A stretch of 64,000 nucleotides of DNA from Comamonadaceae bacterium (GTDB lineage Bacteria; Pseudomonadota; Gammaproteobacteria; Burkholderiales; Burkholderiaceae_C): assembly GCA_027486495.1 (NCBI GenBank), contig JAIXOZ010000073.1, positions 1 to 64,000 on the forward strand. The letters run 5' to 3'. The translations under genes and the position numbers were made by a program. Shown here piece after piece: positions 60,508 to 63,700 of the stretch. Under the pieces are notes generated by a model, which saw only the letters and a list, made by a program, of their open reading frames with translations, had not been told where the DNA came from and did no database searches. Every line of letters starts with the position of its first letter. Within the stretch, counting starts at the first letter, position 1.

Positions 60508-61281
60508 ATGAAAAAGCACATGCTCAGCGCCGCTTTGGTGGCCTTGCTGGCGTCCCCTGTACTGGCGCAAAACCTGGCCGTGGTCAACGGCAAGCCCGTG
60601 CCTTCGTCACGCGTCAAAGCACTGCAGCAGCAAGTTGAAGCCTCGGGCCGCCCCGTGACCCCTGAGGTGATGGCACAGATTAAAGAAGAGCTGATCGCCC
60701 GCGAAGTCTTTATGCAAGAAGCCCGCAAGCGCGGTCTGGATGCCTCTGACGACTACAAAACCCAACTGGAACTGGCCCGCCAGACCATCCTGATCCGCCA
60801 GTTGTTTACCGACTTTCAAAAGAAAAACCCCGTCACTGACGCCGACATCAAGGCCGAGTACGACAAGTTCGTCAAGGAAAACGGCGGCAAGGAGTACCGT
60901 GCCCGCCACATCCTGGTGGAAAAAGAAGACGAAGCCAAGGCCCTGATTGCCGAGATCAAAAAAGGTGGCAGCTTTGAAGAATTGGCCAAAAAAGCCTCGA
61001 AAGACCCAGGGTCTGGCGCCAACGGTGGTGACCTGGATTGGGCAGCCGCAGGCAGCTATGTGCCCGAGTTTTCGGGTGCCATGGTGAAACTGGACAAGGG
61101 CCAGATGACGGATGCCCCCGTCAAGAGCCAGTTTGGCTTTCACATCATCCGCGTGGACGATGTGCGCGAGGCCCAGTTGCCCAAGCTCGACGAGGTCAAG
61201 CCTCAGATTTCTCAGCAGTTGCAGCAGCAAAAGCTGAGCGCCTACCAAGAAGGTCTGCGCAGCAAAGCCAAGATCCAGTGA
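60508..61281 (+). CDS. PpiC/parvulin-type periplasmic peptidyl-prolyl isomerase
   Basis: 257 aa; signal peptide, EYRARHILVEKEDEAKALIAEIKKGGSFEELAKKASKDPGSG...FGFHIIRVDDVR. Confidence 0.95.
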   Translation: MKKHMLSAALVALLASPVLAQNLAVVNGKPVPSSRVKALQQQVEASGRPVTPEVMAQIKEELIAREVFMQEARKRGLDASDDYKTQLELARQTILIRQLFTDFQKKNPVTDADIKAEYDKFVKENGGKEYRARHILVEKEDEAKALIAEIKKGGSFEELAKKASKDPGSGANGGDLDWAAAGSYVPEFSGAMVKLDKGQMTDAPVKSQFGFHIIRVDDVREAQLPKLDEVKPQISQQLQQQKLSAYQEGLRSKAKIQ

Positions 61282-61300: not shown

Positions 61301-61328
61301 AAAAACGCGACTTCGGTCGCGTTTTTGT
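61301..61328 (+). terminator. Rho-independent terminator after the ppiC-like gene
   Basis: AAAAACGCGAC-TTCG-GTCGCGTTTTT, perfect stem with TTCG tetraloop and T-run. Confidence 0.93.
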
Positions 61329-61347
61329 TTTCTGGGGTTCTGTGGTC

Positions 61348-61423
61348 AAAAGGCATGGGCGCGGGCTGGGGTTCAGAGGCGCTTCGCTTTGCCACATCAC
61401 CCCATCCCGCGCCCAAGCCTTTT
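61348..61423. repeat. Long hairpin 1 (24-nt arms, 28-nt loop)
   Basis: AAAAGGCATGGGCGCGGGCTGGGG / CCCCATCCCGCGCCCAAGCCTTTT, 22 of 24 pairs; loop 61372-61399. Confidence 0.9.
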
Positions 61424-61547
61424 GTGGGGCGTCTCTGGTGAGCGCACCTCGAAATGCAGGAGTTCCAGTTCCAGGTCCCGGCATGACTTGGCAAACCCGA
61501 AGGCAGCGCCGAACATAACACCTGCACCAGCACCACGAACACCCATG

Positions 61548-61629
61548 CCCTGAAGTGGTGGGCACTGGCCGGGGTGATGTGGCAAAGCGAAGCGCCTCTG
61601 AGCCCCGGCCAGTGCCCGCCAATTCAGGG
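61548..61629. repeat. Long hairpin 2 (27-nt arms, 28-nt loop sharing the inverted loop sequence of hairpin 1)
   Basis: CCCTGAAGTGGTGGGCACTGGCCGGGG / CCCCGGCCAGTGCCCGCCAATTCAGGG, 25 of 27 pairs; loop 61575-61602 matches the reverse complement of loop 1 at 27/28. Confidence 0.9.
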
Positions 61630-61632
61630 CTC

Positions 61633-61685
61633 CCCAAGAGTTACAGGGCCACCCAAGAGTTACAGGCCCACCCAAGAGTTACAGG
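61633..61685. repeat. Three 19-bp tandem repeats
   Basis: CCCAAGAGTTACAGGGCCA / CCCAAGAGTTACAGGCCCA / CCCAAGAGTTACAGG..., starts at 61633, 61652, 61671. Confidence 0.93.
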
Positions 61686-61729
61686 GCTCTCGCATGGCTG
61701 GAAGACACAAACTGGGATAATCCCAGCCC

Positions 61730-63700
61730 ATGCAGCCTCACCAACTCGAACTCCTCGCCCCCGCCCGCACCTTCGACATCGGCATCGAAGCCATCAACCA
61801 TGGCGCTGACGCGGTCTACATTGGCGGCCCGTCTTTTGGGGCACGCTCCACGGCGGACAACAGCGTTCAGGACATTGCCAAACTGGTGCAATACGCCCAC
61901 CGCTTTCACAGCCGCATTTTTGTCACGCTCAACACCATCTTGCGCGACGACGAATTGGAAGGCGCACGCAAGCTGGCCTGGCAGCTTTACGACGCAGGCG
62001 TGGATGCCTTGATCGTGCAGGACATGGGCCTGCTCGAGATCGACATGCCGCCGATTCAGCTGCACGCCAGCACGCAGACCGACATCCGCACACCCGAAAA
62101 AGCCCGATTTTTGCAAGACGCGGGGCTGAGCCAGATCGTGTTGGCCCGCGAACTCACACTGCCGCAGATCAGCGCGATCCGCGACGTGATCGACACCGAG
62201 CGCACCGTGATCGAGTTTTTTGTGCACGGCGCTTTGTGCGTGGCCTACAGCGGCCAGTGCTTCATCAGCCACGCCCACACCGGGCGCAGCGCCAACCGGG
62301 GCGATTGCTCGCAGGCTTGTCGCTTACCGTACGAAGTCAAAGACGCGCAAGGCCGCATCGTGGCGCACGACAAACATGTGCTGAGCATGAAAGACAACAA
62401 CCAAAGCGAGAACTTGCGCGACCTGGTGGACGCGGGCATTCGCAGTTTCAAGATCGAAGGCCGTTACAAAGACATGGCCTATGTGAAAAACATCACGGCC
62501 CACTACCGCAAGCTGTTTGACGAAGTGCTGACCGAGCGACCCGAGCTGGCCCCGGCTTCACATGGCCGCAGCACCTTCAGCTTCGAACCCGATCCGAACC
62601 AGAACTTCAACCGCGAGTTCACCGACTACTTTGTGCAGGGCCGCAAGGAAGACATTGGCGCGTTTGATACGCCCAAAAACCCCGGCCAGCCGATTGGCTG
62701 GGTCAGCAAGGTGACGGCCGAACACGTCGAGATCACCACCGACGACCCGACCACCGAACTGCACAACGGCGATGGGCTTTGTTACTACGATCTGCAAAAA
62801 GAACTGGTGGGCCTGCAGATCAACCGTGCCGAGGCCGCTAAAGCCAAGGGCGTGTGGAAGCTTTACCCCAAAGACCCCATGGACGGTTTCAAAGACTTGC
62901 GCCAGGGCGTGCAGGTCAACCGCAACCGCGACATGAGCTGGGTGCGCACGCTGGACAAAAAGTCTGCCGAGCGGCGCATGGGCGTGTGGATGCAGTTGGC
63001 CGAAACAACCAGCGGTCTGCAACTGACCCTGACCGATGAAGCGGGCCACACCGGCACCGCGGCATTGGCCATCGAATGGCAAGCCCCCAAAGACGCAGCA
63101 CAAGCCGAGGACAAACTCAAAACCGCTTTGGGCAAACTGGGCGTCACCCTGTTTGAACCGCTGGATGTCCAACTCGCCCTGCCCCGCCCTTGGTTCGTGC
63201 CGCCCTCACAGCTCAACGCCCTGCGCCGGGACGCCGTGCAGGCGCTTGAAAACGCCCGCACCCAAGGCCTGTACCGCCTGCCGCGCGCGGTGCCGGTGAA
63301 GCCGCCCGTGGCTTACCCCGAAGACACGCTGACCTATTTGGCCAATGTGTTCAACCAAAAAGCCCGCGACTTTTACGCCAAGCACGGCGTGAAGGTCATT
63401 GATGCGGCCTATGAAAGCCAGGAAGAGTTGGGCGAAGTCAGCCTGATGATCACCAAGCACTGTGTGCGCTTTTCCTTGAGCCTCTGTCCCAAGCAGGCCA
63501 AAGGCGTGACCGGCGTGCAAGGCACGGTGAAAGCCGAGCCCATGCAGCTCATCAACGGCAAAGAAAAACTCACCCTGCGCTTTGACTGCAAGCCCTGCGA
63601 GATGCATGTGGTGGGCAAGATCAAGAAGTCGGTGCTCAACGCTGTGCCCGAAAGCCCGGTGCTGTTTTACAAGACCCGACCGGTGGTGGGTTTGCACTGA
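61730..63700 (+). CDS. rlhA: U32 peptidase-family rRNA hydroxylation protein, RlhA-like
   Basis: 656 aa; ELLAPARTFDIGIEAINHGADAVYIGGPSFGAR, HGALCVAYSGQCFISHAHTGRSANRGDCSQACR, long C-terminal domain; length fits RlhA (YdcP) rather than TrhP. Confidence 0.85.
   Translation: MQPHQLELLAPARTFDIGIEAINHGADAVYIGGPSFGARSTADNSVQDIAKLVQYAHRFHSRIFVTLNTILRDDELEGARKLAWQLYDAGVDALIVQDMGLLEIDMPPIQLHASTQTDIRTPEKARFLQDAGLSQIVLARELTLPQISAIRDVIDTERTVIEFFVHGALCVAYSGQCFISHAHTGRSANRGDCSQACRLPYEVKDAQGRIVAHDKHVLSMKDNNQSENLRDLVDAGIRSFKIEGRYKDMAYVKNITAHYRKLFDEVLTERPELAPASHGRSTFSFEPDPNQNFNREFTDYFVQGRKEDIGAFDTPKNPGQPIGWVSKVTAEHVEITTDDPTTELHNGDGLCYYDLQKELVGLQINRAEAAKAKGVWKLYPKDPMDGFKDLRQGVQVNRNRDMSWVRTLDKKSAERRMGVWMQLAETTSGLQLTLTDEAGHTGTAALAIEWQAPKDAAQAEDKLKTALGKLGVTLFEPLDVQLALPRPWFVPPSQLNALRRDAVQALENARTQGLYRLPRAVPVKPPVAYPEDTLTYLANVFNQKARDFYAKHGVKVIDAAYESQEELGEVSLMITKHCVRFSLSLCPKQAKGVTGVQGTVKAEPMQLINGKEKLTLRFDCKPCEMHVVGKIKKSVLNAVPESPVLFYKTRPVVGLH

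Follow-up and report, generated by a model that had tools for sequence, protein, structure and literature searches.

An interspersed palindromic repeat family of Burkholderiaceae with a conserved hairpin tip and a stem of free sequence

Background

Bacterial palindromic repeats are usually defined by the sequence of their stem or by a tag at its end. The locus studied here raises a different question: what is being kept when two neighbouring hairpins share their loop almost letter for letter and seem to share little of their stems? The window, the whole stretch of 64,000 nucleotides that was analysed, belongs to a Limnohabitans genome (Comamonadaceae) of 3.78 Mb. A first-pass annotation of it had described two long hairpins, each with arms more than 90% complementary, unrelated from one hairpin to the other, around near-identical 28-nt loops, and had read them as a recognised structured element, possibly a MITE-like hairpin repeat family or an element bound by a protein as RNA or single-stranded DNA. 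Where the tip is fixed and the stem drifts with compensating changes, nature itself offers a test of whether structure or sequence is recognised. Such a family also lets selection and template switching be compared as keepers of hairpins, and in a genus abundant in fresh water the tip provides a sharp bait for a protein specific to single strands.

Two divergent hairpins in the window

The features of the locus are the following, the two genes and the terminator being given as context.

60508..61281, + strand: PPIC-type peptidyl-prolyl isomerase gene, upstream neighbour
61301..61326, + strand: intrinsic terminator belonging to the upstream gene, with both hairpins located past it
61347..61424, - strand: hairpin 1, arms of about 26 bp, with the GATG...CTGA tip on the - strand; covariance-model match 61344-61427, 81 bits
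61373..61398, - strand: tip of hairpin 1, 26 nt, conserved and structured, sequence GATGTGGCAAAGCGAAGCGCCTCTGA
61425..61546, no strand: spacer between the divergent hairpins
61547..61630, + strand: hairpin 2, arms of about 28 bp; covariance-model match 61547-61630, 90.5 bits
61576..61601, + strand: tip of hairpin 2, 26 nt, conserved and structured
61730..63700, + strand: peptidase U32 gene, downstream neighbour

A repeat search of the window places the arms of hairpin 1 at 61347-61372 and 61399-61424, where they are 92% complementary, and those of hairpin 2 at 61547-61574 and 61603-61630, with 93%. Both tips fall inside an exact 31-bp inverted repeat (61373-61403 versus 61571-61601), as had been read directly from the letters. 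Compared with shuffles, the folding of the two hairpins has z-scores of -8.3 to -9.7, as RNA and as DNA, and the loop has no match in shuffled windows. No sigma-70-like promoter was found in the spacer. At this locus, relatives have an empty site, a single hybrid hairpin, or remnants of both outer arms without the tip.

Other repeats are found in the same intergenic region. Directly 3' of hairpin 2, at 61625-61687, a 19-bp unit, CACCCAAGAGTTACAGGGC, is present in three tandem copies, and in two relatives the region between ppiC and the U32 gene has other REP-like repeats at the hairpin site, for example GTAGGTCGGGCCTTTACGGTCCGACA and TGTGGGAGCCCCGCCCTCGGGGCGATGG.

A repeat family richest in Limnohabitans and a sister genus

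The loop is not unique to the window: a search of the whole genome, allowing at most one mismatch, finds nine copies, each in a long GC-rich hairpin, mostly of 25-29 bp, whose arms differ from copy to copy. The flanks of the other copies are thus complementary too, one of them (C51, on the + strand) missing part of one arm. In the genus, loop copies are present in 50 of 90 genomes, with 1 to 15 per carrying genome; a control pattern, the reversed loop, is present in none of the 90. Named records with the loop come from Limnohabitans, Comamonadaceae and other Burkholderiales, with the exception of one metagenome-assembled genome titled Akkermansia. The contigs of that assembly, titled Akkermansia muciniphila, bear typical Limnohabitans hairpins, and its title is probably wrong. 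Viral contigs gave no exact loop match.

A covariance model widens the family. It has 17 matches in the window's own genome, the weakest with an E-value of 0.14, and several of them have another type of tip, GATTTGGCGAGC...GAGT(T)ATGA. Two Limnohabitans genomes without the first tip have 7-8 covariance-model copies each, four others have no match, and a genome of a sister genus has as many as 15 copies. Sampling the bacterial family gave matches, among them relatives with other tips, in 35 of 399 genomes and in 14 of 112 genera; when the order was sampled, only one match, a weak one, came from outside the family. The hairpins are thus members of a family of interspersed palindromic repeats that is found in Burkholderiaceae and is most abundant in Limnohabitans and one sister genus. 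No description of the hairpin sequence or of such a family was found in the open-access literature or in Rfam and, judged from these sources, the family is apparently undescribed so far.

A fixed tip on a drifting stem

The repeat unit is about 84 nt long, with a stem of 25-31 bp, usually 29, and a structured tip of about 24-28 nt. Among 168 distinct hairpins, whose stem lengths peak at 29 bp, 155 have the identical 26-nt tip GATGTGGCAAAGCGAAGCGCCTCTGA. The stem behaves otherwise. In 32 representatives, both partners have changed in 31 of the 33 stem pairs, and paired cells amount to 96%, whereas sliding the partner leaves no more than 50% paired; since the representatives were picked for good pairing the 96% is inflated, but the contrast with the slid controls far exceeds that effect. 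The covariation of arms between loci is thus strong, and together with the loop copies and their complementary flanks it supports the earlier reading of a recognised structured element or hairpin repeat family. The description of the arms as unrelated has to be divided along the stem: it holds for the outer part, where identity between loci is near chance over 10 bp (31% versus 29% in shuffled arms at positions 18-27), and fails for the inner 8 bp, with 66% versus 44%; positions 9-17 have 42% versus 37%.

Substitutions within clusters of orthologous or near-orthologous units, which were not filtered for pairing, tell on which strand the stem is kept. The copies group into some 15 clusters, each of at least 4 units, and departures from the cluster consensus comprise 181 double Watson-Crick changes, 149 G·U, 44 A·C and 126 others. 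G·U is commoner than A·C in 13 of the 15 clusters and, counted by column, outnumbers it by 146 to 40 on the tip strand (p = 2e-15, the columns not being fully independent). It follows that the GATG...CTGA strand is the folding strand. This bias singles out one strand as the folded form, which is compatible with action as RNA or as single-stranded DNA.

The 28-nt loop of the first-pass annotation is conserved as claimed, but it is not open. Read from the closing pair, which is C-G or T-A, towards its centre, the tip has G·A, A·G, T·T, G-C, T·T, G-C, G-C, C-G and AAAGCGAAGC, and its short internal helix is backed by compensatory changes in other genera: in one, GATtTGGCAAAGCGcAGCGCCTaTGA, pair 4-23 changes from G-C to T-A; in another, GATGTcGCAAAGCGAAGCGCgTCTGA, pair 6-21 changes from G-C to C-G; a third genus has both changes. 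Judged from this covariation of pairs 4-23 and 6-21 between genera, the tip is itself structured. In many tips the apex is GCGNAGC, where N is found as A, C and T. In DNA, a GNA loop with two or more closing G-C pairs makes an extraordinarily stable mini-hairpin (PMC4686876), and a stable apex of this kind fits single-stranded DNA, and RNA too.

What is observed is thus the folding of one defined strand, with a stem conserved in structure rather than in sequence and a tip that is near-invariant in Limnohabitans. A stem kept as pairing ability beside a tip kept almost letter for letter suggests that a folded single strand is recognised, and not the sequence of the stem. At the base of the stem, the flanks are weakly C-rich; their profile has no GTAG/CGTC tag and no conserved motif like the core sites of integron attC.

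Placement, hybrids and inversions

Limnohabitans copies are mostly intergenic, and their orientation to neighbouring genes is mixed. Beyond the window, the neighbours include genes for an Orn/Lys/Arg decarboxylase, enoyl-ACP reductase, acyl-CoA dehydrogenase and an ETF protein, GAPDH, an HpcH/HpaI aldolase and a class II tRNA synthetase with an editing domain. Close pairs of hairpins are mostly divergent (7 of 11 cluster combinations); the 4 convergent combinations involve the overlapping clusters 2, 7, 14, 15 and 24, apparently one locus. Hybrid hairpins, in which the left arm comes from one unit and the right arm from the unit next to it, are found at other loci. At the HpaI-aldolase and U32 sites the direction of the tip is reversed in some species, for which separate insertion is also a possible explanation.

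In several species, two hairpins about 7 kb apart seem to keep their positions, one of them adjoining a thioredoxin-reductase-like (trxB-like) gene. Flanks of rRNA or tRNA operons were considered as the reason for this spacing and rejected, no rRNA lying between the copies.

In other genera, units are found in frame inside MmeI-type restriction-methylase, recG and valS genes, and possibly, with a weaker score, in uvrA. One linker of the MmeI-type genes is, across genera, short, occupied by the hairpin family, or occupied by other palindromic repeats. Such insertions in linkers, the empty sites in relatives and the spread over several genera argue for palindromic DNA that is, or formerly was, mobile. 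Most Limnohabitans units occupy old shared sites, which gives no sign of present mobility. Divergence at the empty sites obscures where an insertion would begin and end, and neither a boundary nor a target duplication turned up.

Two other ideas were abandoned on the evidence of the MmeI-type genes. A 1.3-kb segment between two hairpins, considered as an autonomous element, is the middle of a restriction-methylase gene. Stems copied from the target, as an inverted target duplication, do not agree with the outer arms of the MmeI subfamily, which are alike by eye, of the type GRGGYGYGGGY, and therefore look inherited and diverged rather than target-derived. In Burkholderiaceae the hypervariable linker before GNPPFLG gathers different palindromic repeats in frame, with peptides such as SDPDFAQRNSGSDP, VRAEPVEA, PLGEGRG and that of the hairpin-family unit.

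Competing explanations

The hairpins could act as RNA: small RNAs, or elements of untranslated regions, with a tip bound by a protein or another RNA and a stem serving as scaffold or RNase III substrate. G·U tolerated on one strand, a tip with tandem G·A and with U·U, the high stability of the RNA folds and a covariation typical of structured RNA would all agree with this, and we hold it unlikely without dismissing it. The mixed gene orientation, the inverted pairs, and units past terminators and inside coding genes favour single-stranded DNA, which we take to be likelier than RNA; the window pair, past its terminator, also has no promoter-like site. Nor does any Rfam family reach the cut-off: against Rfam 15 the window hairpins have generic sub-threshold hairpin matches only, none above the gathering cut-off, and the other copies of the genome have no match, tRNA excepted. 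Intrinsic transcription terminators, which the intergenic position and the very stable GC-rich stems bring to mind, are hardly credible: a T-tract follows the stem in 1 of 168 hairpins on the tip strand and in 11 on the other, the window locus is already served by its own terminator, and termination does not require an invariant 26-nt tip.

The palindromes could also be old and without function, their arms held complementary by template switching and their tips alike by recombination between copies. Template switching is known to homogenise arms and to invert spacers (PMC8604942, PMC8794818); there is some excess of adjacent double changes (8 versus 2.8 expected), and hybrids and tip inversions do exist. 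Template switching alone explains neither the asymmetry of G·U over A·C nor the compensatory changes inside the tip between genera, and single G·U steps are common, so that we judge the absence of function rather improbable. Still less do we credit an ordinary REP or REPIN family moved by a host RAYT (Y1_Tnp), in spite of inverted pairs, inter- and intragenic sites and strand-specific folding that are all REP-like (PMC3733652, PMC8266576). The units are three times the length of a REP and low in copy number, and the base of their stem is without the tag. The Y1_Tnp gene is nearly always present, in 85 of 90 Limnohabitans genomes and in 15 of 15 hairpin-bearing genomes tested from other genera, but in Limnohabitans it is equally present in genomes without the hairpin; it never adjoins a hairpin where checked, no covariance-model match being found around 8 Y1_Tnp loci. 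With neither correlated occurrence nor adjacency, co-occurrence with RAYT was rejected, and the HUH/REP-type transposase for which a search had been proposed is not supported as partner.

A folded strand proposed to be read at its tip

The elements are best read as a new family of palindromic repeats whose way of working resembles that of REP, BIME or RPE, with the conservation reversed: the tip is fixed and the stem is free. Strand-specific folding, a fixed tip and a paired but drifting stem lead us to infer a folded strand read at its tip by a trans-acting factor, and we see about an even chance that the unit is a non-autonomous palindromic repeat whose folded single strand is read through the tip by a trans-acting protein, the sequence of the stem being free. 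The unit would be, or would have been, non-autonomous mobile DNA. The protein would recognise the tandem G·A at the stem junction, the T·T mismatches and often a C-GNA-G triloop; the stem, needed only as a helix, would be free to drift in sequence. Selection can keep the arms complementary, and so can template switching: compensatory change and template switching during replication would both contribute, the latter also being able to invert the tip, and deletion through neighbouring tips would yield hybrid hairpins. The absence of the GNA apex from some tips weighs against this model of the tip, and no protein partner turned up. More tentatively, and with some doubt, the family may be a new kind of DNA element, mobile or regulatory, for which the folded single strand is the sole form recognised: it would be read through its structured tip, often capped by GNA, its stem would be free in sequence, and the single-strand-specific protein serving it would not be a RAYT.

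Relation to known systems

The stem sequence of integron attC sites is largely free. Sites of this kind and the ends of IS200/IS605 (PMC8266576) resemble the present family in that recognition would fall on a folded single strand that bears unpaired landmarks; here, however, the tip is conserved and not the stem base, and no integrase or IS200-type gene is linked. The d(GCGNAGC) mini-hairpins (PMC4686876) are a physical motif rather than a genetic element: many tips contain GCGNAGC, with A, C or T as N, and some are without it. Rickettsia palindromic elements (described in PMC3733652) are likewise palindromes in frame in protein-coding genes, but they belong to another clade, the likeness is one of insertion behaviour, and Limnohabitans copies are mostly intergenic.

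The closest comparison is with REP, BIME and REPIN sequences and their TnpA-REP or RAYT proteins (PMC3733652, PMC3116915, PMC8266576). These too are dispersed palindromes mostly between genes, with inverted pairs, folding of one strand and possible recognition as folded single-stranded DNA; intragenic copies are known in repair and tRNA-synthetase genes (PMC3733652), and those in repair genes are a further likeness. The differences are in scale and in what is conserved: a REP is a palindrome of 20-40 bp with a stem of 5-13 bp, whereas our unit has about 84 nt and a stem of about 29 bp; stem and end tag are conserved there, the tip and no GTAG/CGTC tag here; and the hairpin family has about 5-17 copies per genome and no adjoining RAYT. 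In one genome, a REP-like palindrome, TGTAGGAGC...GCTCCTACA, is present in two near-identical copies 450 bp apart.
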